A stretch of 64,000 nucleotides of DNA from Acidobacteriota bacterium (GTDB taxonomy: Bacteria > Acidobacteriota > Aminicenantia > UBA2199). Shown in pieces: positions 26,392 to 59,678 of this stretch; the first letter of the stretch is position 1, and each line of letters opens with the position of its first letter. Under the pieces are notes generated by a model that was given only the letters and a program-made list of their open reading frames with translations, was not told where the DNA came from and did not search any database. The position numbers and the translations under genes were made by a program. Where the stretch lies: positions 1 to 64,000 of the forward strand of contig JALOLA010000001.1 of NCBI GenBank assembly GCA_025456205.1, in the 5' to 3' direction.

Positions 26392-26502
26392 AATTTGCGC
26401 CGCCTTCGGCGGCGATGCCGCTGGACCGCCGGGCACGGCAATTGCATTCCGCCGCGAAAAAGTGTAAAATAGTGGTCACGCTCAAACAAGGAGGCCTCGG
26501 CC

Positions 26503-27999: not shown

Positions 28000-29487
28000 T
28001 CAGCCCCCGGCTGGTTTTTTCAACAAGTAGTCACGCATGGCAGCGGCAGCTTTTTTACCATCGCCCATGGCCAGGATGACGGTAGCGCCGCCGCGAACGA
28101 TATCACCGCCGGCGAATATGTCCGGCACGGCGGTCTGCATGGTCGCCTCATCGACGACGATCGTTCCCCACTTGCTGACCTCCAGCCCGCGGATCGACCG
28201 CGGAATGAGCGGGTTGGGATCGGTGCCCACGCCGACGACCACGGTGTCCACGTCGATCAGGTAATCCGAACCCGCGATCACCACCGGCCGCCGCCTTCCC
28301 GAATCATCGGCCGCTCCCAGGCCCATTTTCTGCACCTTCATCTGCTGCACCCGGCCTTCGTTGTCGGCGATGTACTCGATGGGATTGGTCAAGGTCAGGA
28401 ACTCGACCCCTTCCTCCTTGGCATGGTGCACTTCCTCGATGCGCGCGGGCATTTCCTGCTCGCTGCGGCGATAGACGATCATCGCCTTCTCGGCCCCCAA
28501 GCGGACGGCGGTGCGCACGGAGTCCATCGCCGTGTTGCCCCCGCCGATGACCGCCACGCGCTTGCCGCGCACGATCGGCGTGTCATAGCTGGGGAACTGA
28601 TAGGCCTTCATCAAGTTGACGCGGGTGAGGTATTCGTTGGAGGAATAGATGCCGATGGCGTTCTCGCCCGGGACATGCATGAATTTCGGCAGCCCGGCCC
28701 CGCTGCCGATAAAGAAGCCCTGGTAGCCCTGCTCGCGCATGTCCTCGATGGTGATGGTCTTGCCGACGATCACGTTCCGTTCAAAGGTCACGCCGAGGGC
28801 CTCCAGGTAGGCGATCTCCGAGCGCACGATGCTCTTGGGCAAGCGGAACTCGGGAATGCCGTAGCTTAAAACGCCGGCCAATTCGTGCAACGCCTCGAAA
28901 ACGGTCACCCGGTATCCCCATTTCGCCATCTGCCCGGCGAAGGTCAGGCTGGCCGGGCCCGAGCCGACGGCGGCAACGCGGACCGGGCTCCGGTTCTCGA
29001 TCGCCGGGACGACGACGTCGCCGGCCAGGCGCTCGCAATCCGAGGCGAACCGTTCCAGGTAGCCGATAGCCACCGGCGGCTTCTTCATCTTCTGGTAAAC
29101 GCAGTTGGCCTCGCACTGCACCTCCTGGGGACAGACCCGGCCGCAGACGGCGGGCAGGGCGTTGGTCTCCTTCAGTTTCCTGGCCGCGGCCAGGAAGTCG
29201 CCCTTCTCGATCAGCTTGATGAAGCCGGGGATGTTGATGTTCACCGGGCAGCCGGATATGCAGGTCGGCGCGGCACAGTCGAGGCAGCGCTTCGCCTCCC
29301 TGACCGCCATTTCCTCGCTCAAGCCGGTATTGACCTCGCGGAAGCCCGCGCTTCTCTCCCGTGCATCCAGCTCGGGCATCCTGACGCGGGGCAGGGCGCT
29401 CCTTTCCTTGGCGCTGAGGCTGGCACGCAATTCATTCCGCCATTCCTGGCCCCTGTCAGCGTGCAAATCCTGGGGATCGACCGGCAT
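28000..29487 (-). CDS. NfnB/GltD-like NADPH-dependent oxidoreductase subunit
   Basis: CLDCAAPTCISGCPVNINIPGFIKLI..CGRVCPQEVQCEANC..GSGPASLTFAGQMAKWGYRVTVFEALHELAGVLSYGIPEFRLPK..GGGNTAMDSVRTA. Confidence 0.92.
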   Translation of the reverse strand: MPVDPQDLHADRGQEWRNELRASLSAKERSALPRVRMPELDARERSAGFREVNTGLSEEMAVREAKRCLDCAAPTCISGCPVNINIPGFIKLIEKGDFLAAARKLKETNALPAVCGRVCPQEVQCEANCVYQKMKKPPVAIGYLERFASDCERLAGDVVVPAIENRSPVRVAAVGSGPASLTFAGQMAKWGYRVTVFEALHELAGVLSYGIPEFRLPKSIVRSEIAYLEALGVTFERNVIVGKTITIEDMREQGYQGFFIGSGAGLPKFMHVPGENAIGIYSSNEYLTRVNLMKAYQFPSYDTPIVRGKRVAVIGGGNTAMDSVRTAVRLGAEKAMIVYRRSEQEMPARIEEVHHAKEEGVEFLTLTNPIEYIADNEGRVQQMKVQKMGLGAADDSGRRRPVVIAGSDYLIDVDTVVVGVGTDPNPLIPRSIRGLEVSKWGTIVVDEATMQTAVPDIFAGGDIVRGGATVILAMGDGKKAAAAMRDYLLKKPAGG

Positions 29488-29499
29488 GGTGCGTCTCCT

Positions 29500-30327
29500 T
29501 TACGACAACGATTTCAAATAGCCGTCGAACGAAAGCTTTTCTTCCGCCTTGTAGGTGTTGAGCCGCTGGATCATCTCGTCATAATCGATCTGGTGGGCGT
29601 CGAACTCGGGACCATCGACGCAGACGAACTTGGTTTTGCCGCCCACCGATACCCGGCAGGCGCCGCACATGCCGGTGCCGTCCACCATGATGGTGTTCAA
29701 GCTGGCGATGGTCGGGACCTCGTAGCGCTTGGTCAGCAGGGCGGTGAACTTCATCATCACCGCCGGCCCGATGGCCACGGCCAGGTGAACGGGCTCGCGC
29801 TTGAGCACGTCCTCGATGCCGACGGTGATCACCCCCTTTCTGCCGTACGAGCCGTCATCGGTCATGATGATCGTCTCGTCGGCGAACGCCGCCATCTCTT
29901 TTTCCAGGATCAGGAGCTCGCGGTTGCGGGCTCCCAGGACGGCGATCAGCCTGTTGCCCGCCTGCTTGAATGCGCGGGCGATGGGGTAGAGGGGGGCGAT
30001 GCCCACGCCGCCGCCGCAGGCCAGCACCGTTCCGAGCTTCTCGACATGGGTCGGCCGACCCAGGGGCCCCGACACGTCCGCCAGTGCATCCCCGGGGTTC
30101 AGGCCGGTGATCTTGCAGGAGGAGGTGCCGACCCTCTGGATGATCAGGGTGATGGTGCCCCTCTCGCGGTCGGCATCGGCGATGGTCAGGGGGATCCTCT
30201 CCCCCTTTTCGTCGGTGCGCACGATGACGAACTGTCCCGGGCACTGCTTGCGGGCGATCGCCTGGGCCTCGACCACCAGCTTTACGACGTTTTCCGACAG
30301 CAGTTCTTTCTCAACGACCTTGTTCAT
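29500..30327 (-). CDS. NfnA-like FAD/NAD and [2Fe-2S] subunit (sulfide DH/DHOD electron-transfer family)
   Basis: MNKVVEKELLSENVVKLVVEAQAIARKQCPGQFVIVR..ACGGGVGIAPLYPIARAF..MVDGTGMCGACRVSVGGKTKFVCVDGPEFDAHQIDYDEMIQRLNTYKAEEK. Confidence 0.93.
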   Translation of the reverse strand: MNKVVEKELLSENVVKLVVEAQAIARKQCPGQFVIVRTDEKGERIPLTIADADRERGTITLIIQRVGTSSCKITGLNPGDALADVSGPLGRPTHVEKLGTVLACGGGVGIAPLYPIARAFKQAGNRLIAVLGARNRELLILEKEMAAFADETIIMTDDGSYGRKGVITVGIEDVLKREPVHLAVAIGPAVMMKFTALLTKRYEVPTIASLNTIMVDGTGMCGACRVSVGGKTKFVCVDGPEFDAHQIDYDEMIQRLNTYKAEEKLSFDGYLKSLS

Positions 30328-30519
30328 GGCGTCGCCCTCCAGGAGGAATAAGAGTAGCAAAGTGCGCAGGCATATACAAACGGAAACGGCACTGCCGGAA
30401 ATCTTTTCAAGACCAAGAGGCCTCCTTCCAAAGACAATGATTTTAAAACAAAATGTAAATAAAATATATATAAAAAAATTTGCCTGTCGAAACCATGGCC
30501 CCACAAGGCTTTTGATTTA

Positions 30520-30592
30520 TAGTGTAAGCGGCAAATATTGTTACACTTGCAAATAATCCATCAATATAGCCGATTAACGACCACAAGTGTAA
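30520..30592. promoter_or_regulatory. Three (A/T)AGTGTAA half-sites as inverted repeats; candidate upstream activator sites
   Basis: tagtgtaa 30520-30527, ttacactt(g) 30541-30549, (c)aagtgtaa 30584-30592; AGTGTAA-N13-TTACACT and TTACACTTG-N34-CAAGTGTAA. Confidence 0.55.
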
Positions 30593-30667
30593 AATATTGA
30601 TGCGGTGTCCGCCTCGCACCGGCCCGTGGTTGCGCGCAGAACCCTTGCCTGGGCCGTATTCCATATT

Positions 30668-30683
30668 TGGCACGCCATATGCT
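30668..30683 (+). promoter_or_regulatory. sigma-54 (RpoN) -24/-12 promoter
   Basis: TGGCACGccatATGCT versus TGGCACGNNNNTTGCW: one mismatch, exact GG-N10-GC spacing; 55 bp before the ATG at 30739. Confidence 0.82.
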
Positions 30684-30738
30684 TATAAGGTAATGGGGAC
30701 AAAAATGAAACCCGAGAATAAACGAAAAGGAGAATAAA

Positions 30739-31749
30739 ATGAACGAAAAGAAAGTGTTGTTGATCGACGATGAGGTTTCCCTGCAGCGCAGCCTGTCCCT
30801 GGGGCTGCTGCAAAAAGGATATGAAACCGAATCCTGCGAAAGCGGCATGTGCGGCCTGAAGGCGCTGGAGCGCATCAAGAACAAGCAGGCCCCCTTCCAG
30901 TACGTGGTCGTCGACCTGCGCCTTCCCGACATCGACGGCATCAACCTGCTCAAGGTGATCAAGTTTAATTACCCCGAGCTGCCCGTGGTGGTGATCACCG
31001 GCTATGGCAACGAAACGACCGAGGCCAACGCCCGGTCCGAGAAGGCCGACGCCTACCTGGAAAAGCCGTTCACCGCCGAAGAGCTGAGCGCCATCCTCGC
31101 GGATATCCCCCTGAAGAAAGCGGCTCCCGAGGTCGCAACGGAGGAGATCGCCGAACCCTCCGGCGCAAGCTCGGTGAGCGCCTACGTCCTGCTGAACTTC
31201 AGCGACACGGCTGACCTGGCCGCGGTCTACCAGGACCTGTACTTCATGGACCAGGTGCTGTACTGCGACGCCATCAAGGGAGATTTCGACCTGGCCCTGC
31301 TGCTGCAGGCGGGGACCCTGGCCGACATCCGCGCCACGGTGGACAACAAGATCAAGACGCTCCCCGGAGTGAAGGAGGCCGTGTTCCTGCCCGTGGATCC
31401 GCCGCAGCTGCCCGAGGGCGTCGCCAACATCATCGGCACGTTTGACAAGGCCCTGGGGCGGGAGAAGGGAAATCCCGACGCGGCCAACAACGCCAATTTC
31501 CAGAAGAGTGCGTCCTCCTATGTCTTCCTGGAGATCGAGAAGGACAAGCTGGAGCAGATCTATCCCACCCTGTACATCAACGACCAGGTCGTCTCCTGCG
31601 ACTGCAGCGCCGGCAGGTATGACATCGTGCTGCTGATGCAGGGAGCGAGCTTCGCCGAGATCGACCGCAACATCCTGGCCAAGATCAAGCCACTGGACGG
31701 CGTGCTGCGCATCAAGGAAATGCCCATCATCAAGCTATTTGAAATGTAA
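30739..31749 (+). CDS. Receiver domain plus two Lrp/AsnC-type (RAM) ligand-binding-like domains, no apparent DNA-binding domain
   Basis: KVLLIDDEVSLQRSLSLGL..VVVDLRLPDIDG..VVVITGYG..YLEKPF; then AYVLLNFSDTADLAAVYQDLYFMDQVLYCDAIKGDFDLALLLQAGTLADIRATVDNKIKTLPGVKEAVFLPV and a second similar copy. Confidence 0.8.
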   Translation: MNEKKVLLIDDEVSLQRSLSLGLLQKGYETESCESGMCGLKALERIKNKQAPFQYVVVDLRLPDIDGINLLKVIKFNYPELPVVVITGYGNETTEANARSEKADAYLEKPFTAEELSAILADIPLKKAAPEVATEEIAEPSGASSVSAYVLLNFSDTADLAAVYQDLYFMDQVLYCDAIKGDFDLALLLQAGTLADIRATVDNKIKTLPGVKEAVFLPVDPPQLPEGVANIIGTFDKALGREKGNPDAANNANFQKSASSYVFLEIEKDKLEQIYPTLYINDQVVSCDCSAGRYDIVLLMQGASFAEIDRNILAKIKPLDGVLRIKEMPIIKLFEM

Positions 31750-31773
31750 GCTGAAATATAAGATAATGGGTGC

Positions 31774-32292
31774 ATGACACCCAATGACAAACTGAAAGCG
31801 CAGCAGAAGAAGAACGGGCTGGCCGGCTTCAAGGTTGACCTCTGGAGCTATGAGGGGGAAAAGGGAGCCCTGATCCCCCTCTTGCAGGCGGCCCAGGACA
31901 CGTACGGCTTCATTCCCGCCAGCGCCATCGACCAGATCAGCGAGATCGTGGGCATCCCGGCAGCCGAGATCTACGGCGTGATCACGTTCTACTCGCAGTT
32001 CCGCCTGAAGCCGCTGGGGAAATTCCTGATCAAGATCTGCGACGGCACCGCCTGCCACGTCAACGGCTCCGAGCGCATCGCCGGCGTGATCGAGGACGAG
32101 CTGCAGATCAGCGGCAACGACACCACCGAGGACGGGCTCTTCACCCTGCAGAAGGTCGCCTGCCTCGGTTGCTGCTCGCTCTCGCCGGTGATCATGATCA
32201 ACGACGAGACCTACGGCCGCCTGACGCCGAAGAAAGTCCAGCAATTGCTGAAAGAATACAAAGCCAAGGCCCAGAACCCCCAAACCGCCTGA
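31774..32292 (+). CDS. NuoE/HydC-like [2Fe-2S] subunit
   Basis: LIPLLQAAQDTYGFIPASAIDQISEIVGIPAAEIYGVITFYSQFRL..ICDGTACHVNGS..ACLGCCSLSPVIMIND. Confidence 0.93.
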   Translation: MTPNDKLKAQQKKNGLAGFKVDLWSYEGEKGALIPLLQAAQDTYGFIPASAIDQISEIVGIPAAEIYGVITFYSQFRLKPLGKFLIKICDGTACHVNGSERIAGVIEDELQISGNDTTEDGLFTLQKVACLGCCSLSPVIMINDETYGRLTPKKVQQLLKEYKAKAQNPQTA

Positions 32293-32310: not shown

Positions 32311-34077
32311 ATGAAGACCATCAAAGTAGGACTCGGCACGTGCGGAGTTTCTGCTGGCGGCGAGAAGGTCTATGCCGCCCTGAAAGAGGAGATCGCCAGG
32401 GAGCAGCTCCAGGTCCGGCTGGTGGAAACCGGGTGCATGGGCAACTGTTACCAGGAGGTCCTCGTTGAGGTCATCGACGAAAAGGGCCGCGACTACATGT
32501 ATGGCAACGTGACGCCGGACAAGGTCAAAAGGATCCTGGACGAGCAGGTGCGCCAGGACAAGCCCATCGGCGAGTGGATCGTCAAGGGGCTCGATCCCGC
32601 TCGCGAGGACACGTTCTTCGCCAAGCAGAAGCGCATTGTCCTGCGCAACTGCGGCATCATCGATCCCGACTCCATCGAGGAATACATCGCCAGCGGCGGC
32701 TACCAGGCCATCCAGAAGGTGCTGAAGGAATACGCTCCCGAGCAGGTCATTGAGATCATACTCCAGTCCGGGCTGCGCGGCCGCGGCGGGGCGGGATTCC
32801 TGACCGGCATGAAGTGGCGCTTCTGCCGCCAGGCCGCCGGCGACAAGAAATACATCATCTGCAACGCCGACGAGGGTGACCCGGGCGCCTTCATGGACCG
32901 CAGCACCCTGGAGGGCGACCCGCATACGGTGCTGGAAGGCATGATGATCGGCGCTTACGCCTGCGGCGCTGACGAAGCCTACATCTACTGCCGCGCCGAA
33001 TATCCCATGGCCGTGCGCCGGCTGCGGCACTCCATCCGCAAAGCCACGGAGATGGGGTTCCTGGGCGAGGGCATTTTCCACTCGAAAATGAACCTGAGGA
33101 TCAAGATCAAGGAGGGGGCCGGCGCCTTTGTCTGCGGCGAGGAGACCGCCCTGATCGCCTCCATCGAGGGGCAGCGCGGCATGCCGCGCTTCCGGCCTCC
33201 TTTCCCCGCGCAAAAGGGCCTGTGGGGCAAGCCGACCAATATCAACAATGTCGAGACCTATGCCAACGTCCCCTGGATCATCCTGAACGGCGCCGGGGCC
33301 TTTGCCGCCATGGGCACCGAGAACAGCAAGGGCACGAAGGTCTTTGCGCTGGCCGGCAAGATCGCCCGCGGCGGCCTGGTCGAGGTCCCCATGGGCCTGA
33401 CCATCAATGAGATCATCTATGACATCGGCGGCGGCATCCGCGACGGCAAGAAATTCAAGGCCGTGCAGATGGGCGGCCCCTCGGGCGGCTGCATCCCGGC
33501 CGGCATGGGCGACCTGCAGATCGACTACCAGAAGATCAACCAGACCGGGGCCATCATGGGCTCGGGAGGCATGGTGGTCATGGACGAGACCACCTGCATG
33601 GTGGAAATGGCCAAGTTCTTCCTGCGCTTCACCCAGGACGAGAGCTGCGGCAAGTGCACATTCTGCCGTATCGGCACCAAACGCATGCTGGAGATCCTGG
33701 AGCGTATCACCGATGGCCGCGGCCGCCAGGGCGACATCGAGCTGCTGGAGGACCTCGCCGACAAGATCCGCAACAACACGATCTGCGGCCTGGGCCAGAC
33801 GGCGCCCAACCCGGTCCTGACCACGCTGAAGTATTTCCGCGAGGAATACGAAACCCATATCCGCGACAAGAAATGCCCGGCGCACAGCTGCGCCCCGCTC
33901 CTGACCTTCACCATCCTGCCGGACCAGTGCACCGGCTGCACCCTCTGCGCCCGGGTCTGCCCGGCCAAGGCCATCAGCGGCGAGAAGAAACAGGCGCACC
34001 ACATCGACCAGGCCGCCTGCATCAAATGCGGCAAGTGTTTCGAGACTTGTAATTTCAAGGCCATCATCAAGGACTGA
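32311..34077 (+). CDS. NuoF/HydB-like NADH/FMN subunit with N-terminal Trx-like [2Fe-2S] and C-terminal 2x[4Fe-4S]
   Basis: ILQSGLRGRGGAGFLTGMKWRFCRQAAGDKKYIICNADEGDPGAFMDR..ESCGKCTFCRIG..CTGCTLCARVCPAKAI..CIKCGKCFETC. Confidence 0.95.
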   Translation: MKTIKVGLGTCGVSAGGEKVYAALKEEIAREQLQVRLVETGCMGNCYQEVLVEVIDEKGRDYMYGNVTPDKVKRILDEQVRQDKPIGEWIVKGLDPAREDTFFAKQKRIVLRNCGIIDPDSIEEYIASGGYQAIQKVLKEYAPEQVIEIILQSGLRGRGGAGFLTGMKWRFCRQAAGDKKYIICNADEGDPGAFMDRSTLEGDPHTVLEGMMIGAYACGADEAYIYCRAEYPMAVRRLRHSIRKATEMGFLGEGIFHSKMNLRIKIKEGAGAFVCGEETALIASIEGQRGMPRFRPPFPAQKGLWGKPTNINNVETYANVPWIILNGAGAFAAMGTENSKGTKVFALAGKIARGGLVEVPMGLTINEIIYDIGGGIRDGKKFKAVQMGGPSGGCIPAGMGDLQIDYQKINQTGAIMGSGGMVVMDETTCMVEMAKFFLRFTQDESCGKCTFCRIGTKRMLEILERITDGRGRQGDIELLEDLADKIRNNTICGLGQTAPNPVLTTLKYFREEYETHIRDKKCPAHSCAPLLTFTILPDQCTGCTLCARVCPAKAISGEKKQAHHIDQAACIKCGKCFETCNFKAIIKD

Positions 34078-34089
34078 GAGGAAGCAGCC

Positions 34090-37000
34090 ATGGACCAAAT
34101 CACGCTCACCATCGACGGCAAGCCAGTGACCGCCCGCCCGGACCAGACCATCCTGGACGTGATCCGCGAGAACCGCATCGCCGAGATCCCCACCCTGTGC
34201 CACGAGCCCAAGCTGCCGCCCTACGGCTCCTGCTACCTCTGCGTAGTGGAGGTCGAGGGCGTCAAGAAGCTGATCCCTTCCTGCTCCAGCCCGGTGGCCG
34301 ACAAGATGGTCGTGCACACCGACAACCCGCGCATCCGCGAGGCCAGGAAGACGGCGCTGGAGCTATTGCTGTCGAACCACTACGCCGATTGCCTGGCCCC
34401 CTGCCAGCAGACCTGCCCGGCCGGCGTCGACGTCCAGGGCTATATCGCCCTGATCGCCATGGGCAAGCCCCAAGAGGCCGTGCGCCTGATCAAGCAAACC
34501 AACCCCCTGCCCCTGGTCTGCGGCCGCGTCTGCGTGCGCGAGTGCGAGGTCGCCTGCCGCCGCAACCGCGTCGACGAGCGCGTGGGCATCGACTACCTGA
34601 AGCGCTACGCCACCGACATCGACATCGAGGACCCATGGACCCCCGCTGTCCCTGCCGCCAACGGCAAGAAAGTCGCCATCGTCGGCGGCGGTCCCGCGGG
34701 ACTGACCTGCGCCTATTACCTGGTGCTGAAGGGGTATGCCGTCACCCTGTTCGAGAAATCGCCGCACCTGGGCGGCATGCTGCGCTACGGCATTCCCGAG
34801 TACCGCCTGCCCAAGGAGCTGCTGGACAAGGAGATCTCCTGGATCACGAACCTGGGGGTGACCGTAAAGACGCATTCCGCCCTGGGCAAGGATTTCTCGA
34901 TCGCTGACCTGAAGCAACAGGGATTCGATGCCGTCTATCTCGCCTTCGGCGCCCAGAAGGCCAAGGGCATGCGCCTGCCCGGAGAGGATGAGATCCAGGG
35001 CGTCATCGGCGGCATCGACTTTCTCTGGCAGCTGCAGTGCGAAGCCAAGCCCGAGATCTACGGCAACGTGGTGGTTGTCGGCGGCGGCAACACCGCCCTC
35101 GACGCCGCCCGCACCGCCCGCAGGCTGGGCGCCGCCAACGTCACCCTTCTCTACCGCCGCACGCGCAACGAAATGCCAGCCCATCCCATGGAGATCGACG
35201 CCGCCCTCGAGGAAGGCGTGGAGCTGATCCTGCTCTCGGCCCCGACAGAGCTGGTGGCGGAGAACGGCCGGCTCAAGGCCCTGACCTGCATCCGCATGGA
35301 GCTGGGCGAGCCCGACGCCAGCGGCCGGCGCAGCCCCGTGCCGAAAGCGGGCTCCGAGTACAGCCTGCCCTGCGATTTCGTGATCTCGGCCATCGGCCAG
35401 GACGTCGACCTCTGCGGCTTGCAGAAGGACCCGCAGTTGAAGTCGACGCGGCACAACACCCTGGTCTTCAGCGAAGATACGTTCGAAACCACTCTCCCCG
35501 GCGTGTTCACCGGCGGCGACATGGCCACCGGGCCGGCCGTGGCCATCGACGCCATCGCCCACGGCAAGATCGCGGCCAATGCCATCGACCACTTCGTGCG
35601 CACGGGCAAGGCCCAGGGCAAGCCTGAGGAATTCATCAGCCGCAAGGAGGCCTTCGGAGACATCCCCGACAGTGATTTTTCCGATTTTGCCAGGCTGCAA
35701 AAGGAAAAAATGCCGGAGCTCCCCGCCGCCGAGCGGGCCAAGACATTCGACGAGGTCGAGCTCGGCTTCAGCGGCGAACAGGCCGACAACGAAAGTGCGC
35801 GCTGCCTGGAGTGCGGCTGCTCGGCCTATTTCGACTGCGACCTGCGCAAGCATGCCGTGGACTTCGGGGTGGACATCAGCAAGTTCGTGGGCGAGGTGAG
35901 GAAATACAAGGTGGACAAGGCCCACCCCTTCATCACCCTCGACCCCAACAAATGCATCGCCTGCGGCCGCTGCGTGCGCACCTGCTCGGAGATATTGCGC
36001 GTCTCGGCCCTGGGCTTCGTTTACCGCGGCTTTCGATCAGTGATGCGGCCCTCCATGGAAAAGAAGCTGCTGGAGACCAACTGCATCTCCTGCGGCAATT
36101 GCATCGCCGCCTGCCCCACCGGCGCCATCGCCGAGAAGCTGCCTTTCGCCAAGCCCGGCCCCTGGGCCGGCACGAAGCATTCAGCCATCTGCCATTTCTG
36201 TTCCGTGGGCTGCGAGCTGCATTACAAAGTCTACGGCCCCGACGCCTACGCAGTTCTGGGGACCGCCGATGCCGCTCACAACAAGGGCTACCTGTGCCAC
36301 AAGGGCCGTTTCGGCTATCGCTACATGCTGGACGACCAGCGCCTGCGCGCCCCGCTGGTCAAGGGCAAGGCCGGCCTGCAGAAGGCCTCTTGGGACGAAG
36401 CGCTCGACCTGGCCGCCGCAAAGATCCAGGCCCTGGTCAAGAAGCACGGGCCGGAGGCCGTGGCCGTCTTCGCCTCGCCCAGGCTGGCCAACGAAGAACT
36501 GTACCAGCTGCAGAAATGGGTGCGCACCGGCTTCAAGAGCAACATGATCGGCAGCTTCACCCACCTGCTGCAGGGCAACGACCTCGACGCGCTGGACGAC
36601 ATGCTCGGCCTGACCGCCTCCACCACGACCATGGACGAATTCCAGAAAGCCGACGTCATCATGGTGGTCAATGCCGAGCTGACCGAGAACAACCTGGTGG
36701 CCGAGCTCAAGATCAAGGAAGCGATGAAGAAAGGGACGCGCCTGTTGTCCGTGAACTCATCGGAGAATCCCCTGAGCCGCATCGCCGACCTTTGGCTCGA
36801 TCCCAAGCGCGGGACCAACACCGCCCTGCTGGCCGGCCTGGCCAGCGCCCTGATCAAGAAGGGCCGGCTCGACAAGGCCTTCGTCGACGCGCGCACGGAA
36901 AACTTCCCCGCCTTCCAGGCGGCGATCCATGCGATCGCCGGCGACCCGGTGGTCGCCTTGACGGGCATCCAGGCCGATAAATTCGACCGCGCCGTCGACA

Positions 37001-37842
37001 TGCTGGCCGGTGCGGCCAACATCATTGTCGTCTACGGCATGGACCAGTTCCTGGAAAAATCCCGCGATGACATCAAGGCCCTGGGCAACCTGCTGCTGCT
37101 CCTGGGCAAGACGGGGCAGCCCGGCAATGGGCTGGTCCTGGTCCGCGACTACGCCAACGCGCAAGGCCTGCTGGACATGGGGGTCGACAGCCGCTACCTC
37201 CCCGGCCTCGTGCGCCCGGGCCAGAAGGCGGTCGAGCGTTTGCAGTCCTTGTGGGACGTGCCCCTGCAGCGGATCTTCAAGCCCGTCGACCTGGAAGCCC
37301 GGCTGAAAAAAGGCGACGTCAAGGCCCTGCTGGTGTTCGGCGAAGACCCGCTGGCGTCCGCCGCGGCGGGCCGCCTGCTGGCCAAGGTGAAATTCAAGCT
37401 GGTGGTCGACCTCTTCCTGACCGCCAGCGCCGCCGAGGCCGATGTGGTCCTGCCCCTGTCGACTCCCCTGGAGAGCACCGGCACCTTCACCGCCTGCGAT
37501 CGCCGCGTACAGCGCAGCGGCGCCCTCGTGCCGCCGGCTTCCGGGAAGGTTAACCTGGAGATCATCCAGCTGCTGGCGGAAAAACTGGGCATGGCTCTGA
37601 AACCCGCCTCCCCGGAGGCGATCCTTGCCGAGATCGGCGCGGCCAACCCCTATTACGCGGAGGTGGCCCCGGGCGGCTTCTGGGGCAATGACCTGTTCCG
37701 CGCGGCCTTCGCCACGGACAGCGGCAAGGCGCGATTCCTGCCCATCGCCATCGCGGCGGCGACCTGCCCGCTGGAAAAGCAACCGCTGCTGTCCAGCGAG
37801 AACTACATGCAACTGAAAATCAAGAACAAATTGGTGCTATAA
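34090..37842 (+). CDS. 1250-aa fusion: [2Fe-2S] ferredoxin, GltD-like FAD/NAD(P) module, 4Fe-4S clusters, NuoG/FdhA-like Mop oxidoreductase domain
   Basis: ITLTIDGKPVTARPDQTILDVIRENRIAEIPTLCHEP; CQQTCPAGVDVQGYIAL; GGGPAGLTCAYYL; GGGNTALDAART; CIACGRCVRTCSEI; CISCGNCIAACPTGAI; CHFCSVGCELHYKVYG. Confidence 0.93.
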   Translation: MDQITLTIDGKPVTARPDQTILDVIRENRIAEIPTLCHEPKLPPYGSCYLCVVEVEGVKKLIPSCSSPVADKMVVHTDNPRIREARKTALELLLSNHYADCLAPCQQTCPAGVDVQGYIALIAMGKPQEAVRLIKQTNPLPLVCGRVCVRECEVACRRNRVDERVGIDYLKRYATDIDIEDPWTPAVPAANGKKVAIVGGGPAGLTCAYYLVLKGYAVTLFEKSPHLGGMLRYGIPEYRLPKELLDKEISWITNLGVTVKTHSALGKDFSIADLKQQGFDAVYLAFGAQKAKGMRLPGEDEIQGVIGGIDFLWQLQCEAKPEIYGNVVVVGGGNTALDAARTARRLGAANVTLLYRRTRNEMPAHPMEIDAALEEGVELILLSAPTELVAENGRLKALTCIRMELGEPDASGRRSPVPKAGSEYSLPCDFVISAIGQDVDLCGLQKDPQLKSTRHNTLVFSEDTFETTLPGVFTGGDMATGPAVAIDAIAHGKIAANAIDHFVRTGKAQGKPEEFISRKEAFGDIPDSDFSDFARLQKEKMPELPAAERAKTFDEVELGFSGEQADNESARCLECGCSAYFDCDLRKHAVDFGVDISKFVGEVRKYKVDKAHPFITLDPNKCIACGRCVRTCSEILRVSALGFVYRGFRSVMRPSMEKKLLETNCISCGNCIAACPTGAIAEKLPFAKPGPWAGTKHSAICHFCSVGCELHYKVYGPDAYAVLGTADAAHNKGYLCHKGRFGYRYMLDDQRLRAPLVKGKAGLQKASWDEALDLAAAKIQALVKKHGPEAVAVFASPRLANEELYQLQKWVRTGFKSNMIGSFTHLLQGNDLDALDDMLGLTASTTTMDEFQKADVIMVVNAELTENNLVAELKIKEAMKKGTRLLSVNSSENPLSRIADLWLDPKRGTNTALLAGLASALIKKGRLDKAFVDARTENFPAFQAAIHAIAGDPVVALTGIQADKFDRAVDMLAGAANIIVVYGMDQFLEKSRDDIKALGNLLLLLGKTGQPGNGLVLVRDYANAQGLLDMGVDSRYLPGLVRPGQKAVERLQSLWDVPLQRIFKPVDLEARLKKGDVKALLVFGEDPLASAAAGRLLAKVKFKLVVDLFLTASAAEADVVLPLSTPLESTGTFTACDRRVQRSGALVPPASGKVNLEIIQLLAEKLGMALKPASPEAILAEIGAANPYYAEVAPGGFWGNDLFRAAFATDSGKARFLPIAIAAATCPLEKQPLLSSENYMQLKIKNKLVL

Positions 37843-37843: not shown

Positions 37844-37868
37844 ACCCCTGTTGAAACAGAGGGCATTC

Positions 37869-39950
37869 ATGGTGAAGAAAACGGTCCAGCGCAAAGAGTG
37901 CATCGAGTGCGCCCACAAGCTTGAGCTCGACCTCAAGGAGCGGATCAAGGAACTTGAATGCCTTTACTTCGTCAGCTCGCGGATCGAATCGGGAAAAAGC
38001 CTGGGGCAGATCCTGGAAAGCACCGCGGCCAGCCTGGCCCGGGGTTTCCAATTCCCCGAGCTGGCCTGCGCCGCCATTGTTCTGGACCAGGTCCAATATC
38101 CTCCCGGGGCGACGGCGTGCCAGAAGGTCACGTCCGCCCTTCAGGCCGACATCGTGGTCAACGGCCAATGCCGGGGCTACGTCAAGGTCGGCTATGTGAA
38201 GGAAAGCACTTTCCTTGAAGAGGAGAAAAGGCTCATCAAGGAGATCGGCCGCATGATCTCCAAGGCGGTGGAGAAGCATGAGTTGCAGCTGGAGCTCAAG
38301 AAGTATGTCGGCAACCTGAAGGACCTGGTCAAGGCCAAGACCCGGGAGCTGGAAAAATCCACCAAACGCTTCGAGGACCTTTTCGAGAACGCCCCGGACG
38401 GCATCGTCATCTCTGAGCTCAACGGTGACATCCTGAAGGCCAACCGCGCGTTCTACCGCATGCTTCACTACCCCGAGGACGGTTCGGTCAAGCTGAATTT
38501 CGTGCGCGACAAGCTCTACGCCAATATTCCCCGCATCCGTCCCTATATTTTTAAAAAACTGAAGGAAAAAGGGTTTTTTGAGGGCATGGAGATGAGCCTG
38601 ATCGATTCGCGGGGCAAGCAGTGCCCGGTCATCGGCTCGTTCATCTATGTCGACTTCGACGGGCGGCGCTGCATCGAGGAAGTGTACAAGGACATCCGGC
38701 TGCGCAAGGAGCTGGAGCGCAAGCTGATCGAGCAGAACGAAAACCTGGAAAAGACCATACTGAAAAGGACGGCCGACCTGGAGAACCAGAAAAACCTGCT
38801 GGTCAAAAAGAACGCGGAGCTCGTCTCGCTCACCGAAAAACTCAACGAAAGCAAGAACAAGCTGCAGACCCTGTTCGACGCCATCACCGACCAGGTCGTC
38901 ATGATCGACCGCGAATTCAACATCAAGATGGCCAACCGCAAGGAGGGGGCCGACAGCGGCAAGTGCTACAACAAGATATTCAACCGCGAGCGGCCCTGCG
39001 CAGCATGCCCGGGCGCCATGGTATTCCAGCAGAAGCGCTCCATCACCATGGAGGAAAAGTACGGCGACGAGTACTACCTGCTGCAGGCCTACCCGATCTT
39101 CGACGACCAGGGCGAGGTGGAGGGGGTGCTCGAGTTCTCGCGACAGATCACCCAGCAGAAGAACATGGAGCTGCAGCTCATGCAGACCGACAAGCTGGCT
39201 TCGCTGGGCCAGCTGGTCTCGGGCATCGCCCACGAGATCAACAATCCCAACACCTTTATCCGCGGCAACGTGTCGATCATCCAGGAGGCGATGCGCGATA
39301 TCCTGCCCATCCTGGACGAGTACGCCGGCAACGACAGGAACCTGCAGATCGCCCGCTTGAACTACGACGTGTTCCGCAGCAACGTTTTGGTCCTGCTGGA
39401 GGACATGGCGCAGGGCGCCAACCGCATCAAGACCATCGTCGACGGCCTGCGCAAGTTCGCCAAGCGCGATGACGGGGTGCTGAACGACGAGGTGGACCTT
39501 AACGAGATCATCCAAAGCTGCCTGAGGCTGGTGGCCAACCAGATCGGCCGCAAGGCCAAGGTCAGGCTGGAGCTGGATGCGGGCATCCCCAAGGTCAGGG
39601 GCAACTTCCAGCGCCTGGAGCAGGTGGTGGTCAACATCCTGATCAACGCCTCCCAGGCCATTGATAAAAAAATGGGCGACATCGTCATCCAGACGGCGCA
39701 CCTGGAAAAGGAAGGGGAAAACCTGCTGCGCATCAGCGACGACGGCAAAGGCATCGATGAAAAGACCATGAAGCAGATATTCGATCCATTTTTCACGACC
39801 AAGCGCAACCAGGGGGGGACCGGCCTCGGGCTTTCCATCGCCTACGGTATCATCAAGGAGCACAAGGGGCGGATCGAAGTGGAGAGCAAGCCCGGAGCCG
39901 GCACGACGTTCTCGGTGCGCATCCCGATAACGACGAAGGAATCATCATGA
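37869..39950 (+). CDS. Sensor histidine kinase: GAF-like N-terminus, PAS domains (one Cys-rich), HisKA/HATPase
   Basis: FEDLFENAPDGIVISE; CYNKIFNRERPCAACPGAMVF; LASLGQLVSGIAHEINNPNTFI; NILINASQAI; DDGKGID; GTGLGLSIAYGII. Confidence 0.92.
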   Translation: MVKKTVQRKECIECAHKLELDLKERIKELECLYFVSSRIESGKSLGQILESTAASLARGFQFPELACAAIVLDQVQYPPGATACQKVTSALQADIVVNGQCRGYVKVGYVKESTFLEEEKRLIKEIGRMISKAVEKHELQLELKKYVGNLKDLVKAKTRELEKSTKRFEDLFENAPDGIVISELNGDILKANRAFYRMLHYPEDGSVKLNFVRDKLYANIPRIRPYIFKKLKEKGFFEGMEMSLIDSRGKQCPVIGSFIYVDFDGRRCIEEVYKDIRLRKELERKLIEQNENLEKTILKRTADLENQKNLLVKKNAELVSLTEKLNESKNKLQTLFDAITDQVVMIDREFNIKMANRKEGADSGKCYNKIFNRERPCAACPGAMVFQQKRSITMEEKYGDEYYLLQAYPIFDDQGEVEGVLEFSRQITQQKNMELQLMQTDKLASLGQLVSGIAHEINNPNTFIRGNVSIIQEAMRDILPILDEYAGNDRNLQIARLNYDVFRSNVLVLLEDMAQGANRIKTIVDGLRKFAKRDDGVLNDEVDLNEIIQSCLRLVANQIGRKAKVRLELDAGIPKVRGNFQRLEQVVVNILINASQAIDKKMGDIVIQTAHLEKEGENLLRISDDGKGIDEKTMKQIFDPFFTTKRNQGGTGLGLSIAYGIIKEHKGRIEVESKPGAGTTFSVRIPITTKESS

Positions 39951-41314
39951 AAAAAATTCTGGCCATCGACGACGATCAGGCGGTCCTGAATTACCTGAAC
40001 ATCTTGCTTCTGCAGACCGGCGCCTATAAGATCGCCACCCTGGTCAACAGCGCGAAGGCCTTTCATGAGCTGAAAGCCAGCAATTACGACCTGCTGCTCC
40101 TGGACATGGACATGCCCGACGTCAGCGGCCTGGACATCCTGCGCTTTATCAAGGAAAAGGGCATCGACATCGAGACCATCGTCCTGACCGGGGTCGAGGA
40201 CGTCGAACTGGCCGTCTCGGCCATGAAGCTCGGCGCTTTCGATTATCTCACCAAGCCGGTGGACAACGATCAGCTGCTGAAGGTCATCACCACCGTCCTG
40301 GAAACCCGCAAGGCGCGTGGGGCGACCGCGGCCGAGGCCCATGTGTCCCGTGAGCAGTTGCAGTTCAGGGAGGCCTTCCAGGACATCATCACCCAGAACG
40401 CCGAGATGATCGCCATGTTCCAGATGGTCGAGAAAATGGCCCAGCCCGACAACAGCATCCTGATCTGGGGAGAAAGCGGCACCGGCAAGGAGCTGATCGC
40501 CAAGGCCATCCACCGCATCAGCCGCCGGCGCGACGAGAACTTCGTCGCTGTGAACGCCGGGACCTTCGCCAACGAGCTCTTTTCCTCGGAGTTCTTCGGC
40601 CACGACAAGGGGGCCTTTACCGGCGCCAGCGCCGCCAAAAAGGGGTTTTTGGAGGCGGCGGACAGGGGAACGCTGTTCCTCGACGAGATCGGCGAGCTGG
40701 CTCTGCCCATCCAGGTGAAGCTGCTGCGCGTCCTGCAGGAAGGGGAGTTCTTCCGGCTGGGATCGACCCGGAACCAGAAAGTCGACGTGCGCATCATCGC
40801 CGCCACCAACAAGGACCTGCTGAGCGAGATGAAAAAGGGAAATTTCCGCAAGGACCTTTTCTACCGCCTGAACATGAGCTCGGTCTACCTGCTGCCGCTG
40901 CGCGAGCGCAAAGGGGACATCCCGCTGTTGTGCCAGCATTTCCTGGCGAAATACAACGAGCAGAACCAGAAGAGCATCCAGAAAATTTCGGACCCGGCCC
41001 TGCGTCTCCTGAACCGCTACGAGTACCCCGGGAACGTCCGTGAGCTGATGAACATCATCAACAGCGCCGTCATCATCGAGTCGGGAACGGAGCTGCACAA
41101 GAAATCACTGCCCCATTATTTCCTCGAGAGCTCCGCCATACAGGAAACGACGCCATCGGGCCGGCCGCTGCAGACCCTGAACGAGATGGAAAAGGAGCAG
41201 ATCCGGAATGTCATGGCCCATACCGGCGGGAACAAGAGCCAGGCGGCGAAGATCCTGGGCATTTCCCGGGTCAACCTGCTGGCGAAGATCAAGAAATACC
41301 AGCTGCCGGGCTAG
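39947..41314 (+). CDS. NtrC-family sigma-54-dependent response regulator
   Basis: [67 protein letters not shown]; Fis-type [28 protein letters not shown]. Confidence 0.96.
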
Positions 41315-41328
41315 CGGGCCGGCGCCGC

Positions 41329-42510
41329 TCAGGTTTTTTTGTCCAGGCGGGAAATGATCCCCAGGTACTTGGCCTCGATGACCTCCCAGTCATAGTTCTC
41401 CCGGAAGAACTTTTCCCCGTTGGCGCCCAGCTGCTCGCGCAGGCGACGATCGTTGCTCAGAGCCAGGAAGGCGCCGCGGAATTCTTCGTAGTCGGAGTAC
41501 CACAGCCCGGCGTGGCTGCGCCGGCACTGGCCGCGCAACACCTCGGTGCGGCCGTTGGCCAGGACCGGCTTGCCGACGGCCCAGGCCTCCAGCGCGACCA
41601 TGGAGAGCGACTCGTACTGCGACGGCATGGCCAGGAACTCCGCGCCCCGCAGCAGGTCGAACTTTTCCCTGTTCTCCTGAAATCCGACATGGATGATGTC
41701 GGGATTGTCCGGGACCGGCACATGGGCCTTGCCGACCAGCACCAATTTCAGATCGATTCCGGCCTCCGCCTTCAGGCGCAGGTAGAAATCGAACAACTCC
41801 GGCACCCCCTTGTTCTCGTCCAGGCGGCCGATATAGATGAAATAGCGCCCGGCGATCCCCAGCCGCTTCAGCGTAGGCCGCGGGTCGGCCCACCCGGGGA
41901 TCTCGGAACCGACGCCGACCACGGCGCCGGGCACGGCATGGTTGCCGGAAACGCGCTGGATCAGCTCCATCTCCTCGGGCGAATTGTAAACGATCGCCGC
42001 CGGCAGGTTGAAGAAATCCTGGAACAGGCTGAGGTAGATCACCTGGTCGTGCTCGGCCGTCGGCACCAGGATGGCCTTGCCATTGAATTTCCTTACCCCG
42101 TGAAAGGAATGGTAGTAGCGATAAGAGAAGAAAATGAAATAGGCGAACTCCGCCTGCCGCTGCTCCAACTCACGCAGCAGGTCGGGGACCAGCGGCCCCT
42201 CCTCCTCCAGCCAGCGCATCTCGTCGGCCAGAACGTGCTCCTCATGGAAGATATGCAGCTGCAGGCGCCCGAAAATCTCGGGATCGCGAGGTTTTTTCAC
42301 GCGAAAGCGATTGACCGGGATACCGTTCAGTTCTTCCCGCCCCTCCGCGTAGCAGTGGGCCCAGGTGACGTAGTCGTGGGCGGTGGTCGTGAACACCTCG
42401 ACGGCGAAATGCCGGCTCAGCTTCTCGGCGATCAGGCGGGCGTGGTACTCGGCCCCGCCGTTGATCTCCAAGCCATAGCGCTGCACGACAATGGCGATCT
42501 TCCTGGGCAT
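41329..42510 (-). CDS. GT4-family glycosyltransferase
   Basis: IAIVVQRYGLEINGGAEYHARLIAEKL..YFIYIGRLDENKGVPELFDFY..PSQYESLSMVALEAWAVGKPVLANG. Confidence 0.9.
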   Translation of the reverse strand: MPRKIAIVVQRYGLEINGGAEYHARLIAEKLSRHFAVEVFTTTAHDYVTWAHCYAEGREELNGIPVNRFRVKKPRDPEIFGRLQLHIFHEEHVLADEMRWLEEEGPLVPDLLRELEQRQAEFAYFIFFSYRYYHSFHGVRKFNGKAILVPTAEHDQVIYLSLFQDFFNLPAAIVYNSPEEMELIQRVSGNHAVPGAVVGVGSEIPGWADPRPTLKRLGIAGRYFIYIGRLDENKGVPELFDFYLRLKAEAGIDLKLVLVGKAHVPVPDNPDIIHVGFQENREKFDLLRGAEFLAMPSQYESLSMVALEAWAVGKPVLANGRTEVLRGQCRRSHAGLWYSDYEEFRGAFLALSNDRRLREQLGANGEKFFRENYDWEVIEAKYLGIISRLDKKT

Positions 42511-58901: not shown

Positions 58902-59678
58902 ATGGGCCACGCCGGTTACATTGATTTTCACTGCCACCTGGACGATCCCTGCTTCGACGGGGAGCGCTGGCGCATCATCGACCAATGTTTCTCCTCGGGG
59001 TTCAGCAGCCTGGTCACCGTGGCCGACGCCTATGACGAAAATTCGCTGGCGCGCACGGCGGAGATCCTCGATTACCACGGCGCCATGGCCGCCGTTGCCG
59101 GGGCCCATCCCCACGGGGCGGACGGCTACGGCCCGGCGGTCGAGAAACAGCTGCTCGCCTTCCTCGACCGCCGTCCTGTCCTGGCGCTGGGCGAGGTCGG
59201 GCTGGATTTCCATTACGACCTGGCGAAACGCGAAAACCAGGAGGCCGCGTTCCGGCGCCAGGTCGCCATCGCGCGCGAGCGCGCCCTGCCCCTGGTCATC
59301 CATTCACGGCAAGCGGAAGCGCGGGTGCTGGAGATCCTGAACCTGGAGCGTTTCGCCGCACCGGTCGTGTTCCACTGCTACACCGGGGACGCGGCCGACG
59401 CGGCCGAGATCTGCGCCCGGGGATATTTCCTCTCGTTCTCCGGCATCATCACCTTCAAGAAAGCGGAAGCGCTGCGTGCCATCGTCGCGGCAACGCCGCT
59501 CGACCGGCTGCTCAGCGAGACTGATTCCCCCTACCTGGCGCCGGAGCCCGAGCGGGGCAGGACCAATACGCCTCTCGCCGTCATGCGGGTGGCGCAAAAG
59601 ATCGCAGAGATCAAGAATACCGATATATCTGTTTTATTGACAGGGATCGCCGGCAACTTCCAGCGCTTGCGCCCCTGA
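58902..59678 (+). CDS. tatD: TatD family deoxyribonuclease
   Basis: YIDFHCHLDDPCF..GAHPHGAD..LALGEVGLDFHYD..LPLVIHSRQAEARVLEIL..FHCYTGD..LLSETDSPYLAPEPERGRTNTP. Confidence 0.93.
   Translation: MGHAGYIDFHCHLDDPCFDGERWRIIDQCFSSGFSSLVTVADAYDENSLARTAEILDYHGAMAAVAGAHPHGADGYGPAVEKQLLAFLDRRPVLALGEVGLDFHYDLAKRENQEAAFRRQVAIARERALPLVIHSRQAEARVLEILNLERFAAPVVFHCYTGDAADAAEICARGYFLSFSGIITFKKAEALRAIVAATPLDRLLSETDSPYLAPEPERGRTNTPLAVMRVAQKIAEIKNTDISVLLTGIAGNFQRLRP

Follow-up and report, generated by a model that had tools for sequence, protein, structure and literature searches.

The window, the whole 64,000-nucleotide stretch analysed here, carries a gene cluster that begins with a receiver protein fused to two RAM domains (REC-RAM-RAM), continues with three genes for a redox complex and ends with genes for a histidine kinase and an NtrC-type activator (Table 1). 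From REC-RAM-RAM on, all genes share one strand; successive gaps measure 24, 18, 12 and 8 nt, and the last pair overlaps by 4 nt, the close packing reported in the preliminary description. The order REC-RAM-StnA-B-C-HK-NtrC recurs in every locus long enough, the exception being a paralogous REC-RAM locus (L057). The host genome is a 2.59-Mb assembly of 124 contigs, estimated to be 87% complete; among named genomes, those nearest to it are Candidatus Aminicenantes. Most knowledge of Aminicenantes comes from environmental genomes, and nearly all genomes compared here were assembled from environmental samples. A search of one open-access library found no paper on this system. The whole cluster is also present on a contig labelled Syntrophus (L040), in a form nearer to the window's genus than are the family's other genera; transfer or mis-binning may account for it.

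Table 1. Features of the cluster and its flanks (window coordinates).
Feature	Position	Strand	Evidence
NfnB-like subunit	28000..29487	-	domain and homology searches
NfnA-like subunit, divergent	29500..30327	-	domain and homology searches
nfnA promoter candidate, divergent, TTGTAT-N17-TACTCT	30351..30379	-	12/15 genus loci, 17-nt spacing
Candidate activator dyad A, ATGTAAATAAAATATATAT, weak copy, centre -206	30453..30471	.	held-out matrix 4.8 bits, window rank 8
Candidate activator dyad B, weak copy overlapping dyad A, centre -191	30468..30486	.	held-out matrix 5.8 bits, window rank 6
Candidate activator dyad C, GCGGCAAATATTGTTACAC, centre -131	30528..30546	.	rank 1 in whole window, matrix from other genera
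Candidate activator dyad D, GTGTAAAATATTGATGCGG, centre about -72	30587..30605	.	rank 2 in whole window, matrix from other genera
P1, sigma-54 -24/-12 element, TGGCACGCCATATGCT	30668..30683	+	sequence; kept in 25/25 orthologous loci
Ribosome binding site AGGAG of REC-RAM-RAM gene	30728..30732	+	sequence; kept in orthologue alignment
REC-RAM-RAM: receiver and two Lrp/AsnC ligand-binding domains	30739..31749	+	Pfam PF00072, PF01037 x2
P2, predicted second promoter, TTGAAA-N17-GATAAT, six nt before stnA ATG, leaderless arrangement	31739..31767	+	16/16 genus loci
StnA (HydC/NuoE-like, 2Fe-2S)	31774..32292	+	PF01257
StnB (HydB/NuoF-like; FMN, NAD, extra 4Fe-4S)	32311..34077	+	PDB 9bov_B 1.2e-256, 8oh5_B (Stn) 2.3e-255
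StnC, 1250 aa (2Fe-2S, GltD-like, NuoG/FdhF-like regions)	34090..37842	+	PDB 9bov_A 3e-267, 8oh5_C (Stn) 1.5e-235
Histidine kinase, ATG start (longer alternative TTG at 37851)	37869..39950	+	PF13188, PF08448, PF00512, PF02518
NtrC-type activator: REC, AAA+ with GAFTGA, Fis-type HTH	39947..41314	+	PF00072, PF00158, PF02954; alignment
Terminator-like hairpin 3' of activator gene	41313..41329	+	consensus scan only

The three enzyme genes had been described as HydC, HydB and a 1250-aa fusion making up a redox complex. The redox complex stands, and its identity can be refined through the matches to PDB entries 8oh5 and 9bov: by homology, the complex is a transhydrogenase of the Stn type rather than a hydrogenase, and its subunits are StnA, StnB and StnC. 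This assignment follows from the fusion being a homologue of StnC. The fusion aligns with the Stn structure 8oh5, and with 9bov, a related entry, along most of the chain, and StnB does so along nearly all of its own. HydC-like, HydB-like and GltD-NuoG fusion subunits occur together, and the gene set and domain order are like those of Stn, the Sporomusa-type Nfn (StnABC; PMC7483475, PMC10482914). Lys170 is strictly conserved in known StnC, and roles of Lys170 and Arg239 have been described (PMC10482914). The residues aligned with both are kept here, Lys170 as Lys171 of the window protein, whereas the position of StnC Cys114 is occupied by Val. A text search of PMC7483475 and PMC10482914 found no mention of a regulator of Stn, whereas the cluster here has a kinase and an activator. 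Stn and Nfn are reported to be almost mutually exclusive in acetogens (PMC7483475), which makes it noteworthy that an nfnAB-like pair lies divergent from the cluster, Stn and Nfn thus being neighbours; this adjacency is found within the genus only.

The P1 element upstream of REC-RAM-RAM reads TGGCACG-CCAT-ATGCT, and its GG (30669-30670) and GC (30681-30682) put the expected +1 near 30694. The site is exactly as first quoted, with one mismatch and an intact GG-N10-GC spacing in a TGGCAY-N5-TTGCW context, and it fits the sigma-54 search consensus TTGGCATNNNNNTTGCT published in PMC6615313. When the sense strand of the intergenic region (411 nt) was Markov-shuffled 5000 times, a site with at most one mismatch arose in 3 shuffles. 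A lone one-mismatch match is weak evidence, since the window's other such match (26431-26446) overlaps the -35 element of an ordinary sigma-70 promoter, that of the ribosomal protein L28 gene, and is most likely coincidental. P1, with its one mismatch, could on that showing be a chance match as well, but conservation across orthologous loci settles that it is real. A -24/-12 element is present in all 25 orthologous upstream regions, at -47 to -74 from the aligned gene start, and has at most two mismatches in 23 of them, against 0.17 loci expected from shuffles. A chance match is exceedingly improbable, and P1 is, on this comparative evidence, a sigma-54 promoter with its start predicted at the position given above. 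The sole mismatch in the window is an A in place of the first T of TTGC, a T kept in its 15 congeners, and the window's own -12 element is weak. Elsewhere in the phylum, a locus of a different family has a sigma-54 site at -61 with identical dyad offsets; in L117, an f34 genome, both the site and the dyads are degraded. The preliminary description had made its promoter depend on the presence of rpoN, and a profile search of the genome found one RpoN gene (PF04552 at G000:C44, 162 bits). Of 60 genomes searched, 57 have RpoN; completeness is 60%, 63% and 87% in the three that gave no match.

Upstream of P1 lie four copies of a 17-bp dyad, TGTNAA-N5-TTNACA, with fixed centres at about -206, -191, -131 and -73. 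An unseeded palindromic motif search converged on GC-rich blocks and was set aside for a model seeded from a by-eye alignment and then checked by shuffles and held-out training. This palindromic 19-column model gave 83 matches in 26 loci, whereas refitting it to 200 shuffles gave 14 on average and never more than 30. Because the first model was seeded by eye, the matrix was retrained using only the 11 loci that lie outside the genus. The top two of about 64,000 window positions under the held-out matrix were at -131 and -72, and its best slots averaged over the genus were about -131, -191, -72 and -206. In one locus from another family of the phylum the first three dyads occur at the same offsets; in a third family the dyads are about 58-70 bp apart and shifted in position. 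Dyads upstream of the promoter are shared with known sigma-54/NtrC-family systems. Unlike in those systems, the four dyads here have fixed offsets across genera, and those of three dyads recur in at least one further family.

The half-sites TGTTAA/TTAACA resemble sites of the NADH-sensing repressor Rex, and a Rex-type gene (PF06971) is present in the window's own genome and in all 33 same-genus or same-family relatives searched. The dyads might on these grounds be Rex operators, with the adjacent activator acting elsewhere. However, published Rex sites span 18 bp, their half-sites separated by N4 (PMC5886521), whereas the strict matches here have N5 in 12 cases, N4 in none and no other spacing from 2 to 9. 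At 70-210 bp ahead of a sigma-54 promoter, the dyads also lie in the region used for activator binding, and no dyads are present in the genomes whose activator lacks GAFTGA. Binding by Rex is very unlikely, and the operator reading was set aside because the 18-bp, N4 form is not found.

The preferred candidate for the protein that binds the dyads is the regulator encoded at the end of the cluster (39947). It had been described as a co-linear NtrC-type regulator with GAFTGA, and Pfam and alignment agree: Walker A, GAFTGA, a Fis-type HTH and the receiver Asp are all present. The GAFTGA AAA+ domain and Fis-type HTH are shared with known sigma-54/NtrC-family systems; what differs is that activator and kinase are found at the end of the very cluster proposed as their target. 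Across genera, full orthologues of 39947 beside a sigma-54 site and dyads keep the motif as GAFTGA or GSFTGA and resemble one another in the recognition helix. The histidine kinase has two PAS regions and an N-terminal region that by eye is GAF-like, and its H box is kept in orthologues.

Three relatives (L116, L118 and L120) have neither the sigma-54 site nor the dyads. Their upstream regions contain, by eye, a sigma-70-type promoter with a TTGAC-type -35 and a TATAAT or TAATAT -10. Their NtrC homologue has RDWSG(A/T) in place of GAFTGA, and its Walker A and HTH are altered. Since the three genomes form one clade (support 100/100), the joint absence of site, dyads and GAFTGA counts as one event; in the unrooted tree, the sigma-70 state may be a loss or the older state. 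The predicted link between regulator and promoter is supported by the conserved dyads and by this joint absence. The same observations bear on whether another enhancer-binding protein of the genome uses the dyads and P1, the operon's own regulator not being the activator. Similar dyads do stand before sigma-54-like sites of other operons in a relative, G018, and the window's own genome has further sigma-54-like sites. The genome-wide search for promoter plus upstream site that had been suggested earlier yielded these other sites, and none of the 30 examined has a dyad above 9 bits upstream. For the dyads, the whole genome was searched by pattern: a loose dyad pattern was no more frequent there than in the control, and the pattern YRTNAAWWWWWTTNAYR had no match there. 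Given the lack of another dyad array within this scope, the recognition-helix region of 39947 kept across genera and the degenerate state of the regulator in genomes lacking site and dyads, use by another enhancer-binding protein is unlikely. A second dyad match common to G007 and G010 adjoins an unrelated gene, with no sigma-54 site by the pattern used.

P2 is probably a second, sigma-70-type promoter that gives a leaderless stnA message, and from its position it can serve stnABC and the kinase and activator genes. In 14 of the 16 genus loci the gap between REC-RAM-RAM and stnA is about 25 nt and holds no terminator insert, so read-through into stnA is expected. The other two, L011 and L016, have an insert of about 200 nt with a terminator hairpin (-33.9 and -27.2 kcal/mol) between REC-RAM-RAM and P2, and P2 is kept in both although it is no longer coding there. 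In L018 and L021, from other genera, stnA has a Shine-Dalgarno-like sequence and no P2-like element was seen by eye. It is possible, if doubtful, that P1 serves REC-RAM-RAM only and that the transhydrogenase genes are a separate, roughly constitutive unit transcribed from P2. All 16 genus loci share the TTGAAA -35, the 17-nt spacing and the six-nt distance from P2 to the ATG, which would fit such a unit, as would the survival of P2 behind the terminator-bearing inserts, but the read-through expected in the other 14 loci and the apparent lack of P2 in L018 and L021 argue against it. Because P2 occurs in all 16 genus loci and two relatives have a terminator, sigma-54 control of the enzyme genes appears to be only partial. 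It is firm for REC-RAM-RAM, the only gene that, by its position, the sigma-54 promoter serves in every locus of the genus. The preliminary description had claimed sigma-54 control of the operon and autoregulated, signal-dependent expression of the redox complex. The first holds for REC-RAM-RAM, and the link to the activator is retained on the strength of the dyads and the joint absence; full sigma-54 control of the redox complex is not, given P2 and the terminators of L011 and L016. Two further genes in the window, 41329-42510 (-) and 58902-59678 (+), lack a Shine-Dalgarno sequence and carry a -10-like hexamer six nt ahead of the ATG; leaderless messages may therefore be common in this genome.

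It seems likely overall that P1 and P2 act together in one circuit. The kinase, in response to a signal that is probably the redox or nucleotide state, would phosphorylate regulator 39947, which would then bind up to four of the dyads and open RpoN polymerase at P1. The P1 transcript would carry REC-RAM-RAM and, by read-through, the transhydrogenase, kinase and regulator, closing a positive loop. Basal amounts of enzyme, kinase and regulator would come from P2, which would spare the loop from having to start itself. What comparison between genomes shows is the conservation of the promoter, of the gene order, of GAFTGA and of the dyads with their positions, and the joint absence in one clade.

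The place of REC-RAM-RAM in the circuit is more tentative. Receiver residues D11, D59, T87 and K109 are invariant in 31 REC-RAM-RAM sequences, and the predicted structure is confident (pLDDT 85.3). By Pfam, the protein shares a receiver with response regulators and two RAM domains with Lrp/AsnC proteins; it differs from both in fusing a receiver to two RAM domains and in having no recognised DNA-binding domain. The RAM part had no sequence match in the PDB, and the matches listed in a fold search with the model cover the receiver only, except for one diguanylate cyclase at 18.9 A rmsd. No paper on a receiver fused to two RAM domains was found in the one open-access library. That REC-RAM-RAM shares a kinase with the NtrC regulator is a guess. 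It is conceivable, though not the likelier case, that REC-RAM-RAM acts as a phospho-receiver which senses a ligand and shares its kinase with the activator, such that a three-protein relay on a rigid four-dyad enhancer sets transhydrogenase expression by a RAM-bound metabolite. We know of no description of a REC-RAM-RAM/kinase/NtrC relay that sets the expression of a bifurcating transhydrogenase.

To our knowledge, little has been established on the regulation of electron-bifurcating enzymes in anaerobes. For one enzyme of this kind, the cluster offers a circuit definite enough to be tested, with a kinase, an activator, a promoter and predicted binding sites. The clade without the activator motif, dyads and sigma-54 site provides a natural comparison of how one promoter type, sigma-54 or sigma-70, can take the place of the other before the same genes.

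Dyads of this type also occur apart from the cluster. G018 (L124-L130), a relative in which REC-RAM-RAM was not found, has 25 strict dyad matches against 2 in the control. They often occur in twos or threes at intervals of 70-85 bp, and several precede sigma-54-like sites, which indicates that related activators can use such dyads; the G018 dyads are possibly the regulon of a related activator. Two of the G018 dyad loci also hold condensation-type reading frames (NRPS-like, by eye). In the window's own genome, a gene for a type IV pilin-like protein has a sigma-54-like site 46 nt upstream (L082, C49:34084).
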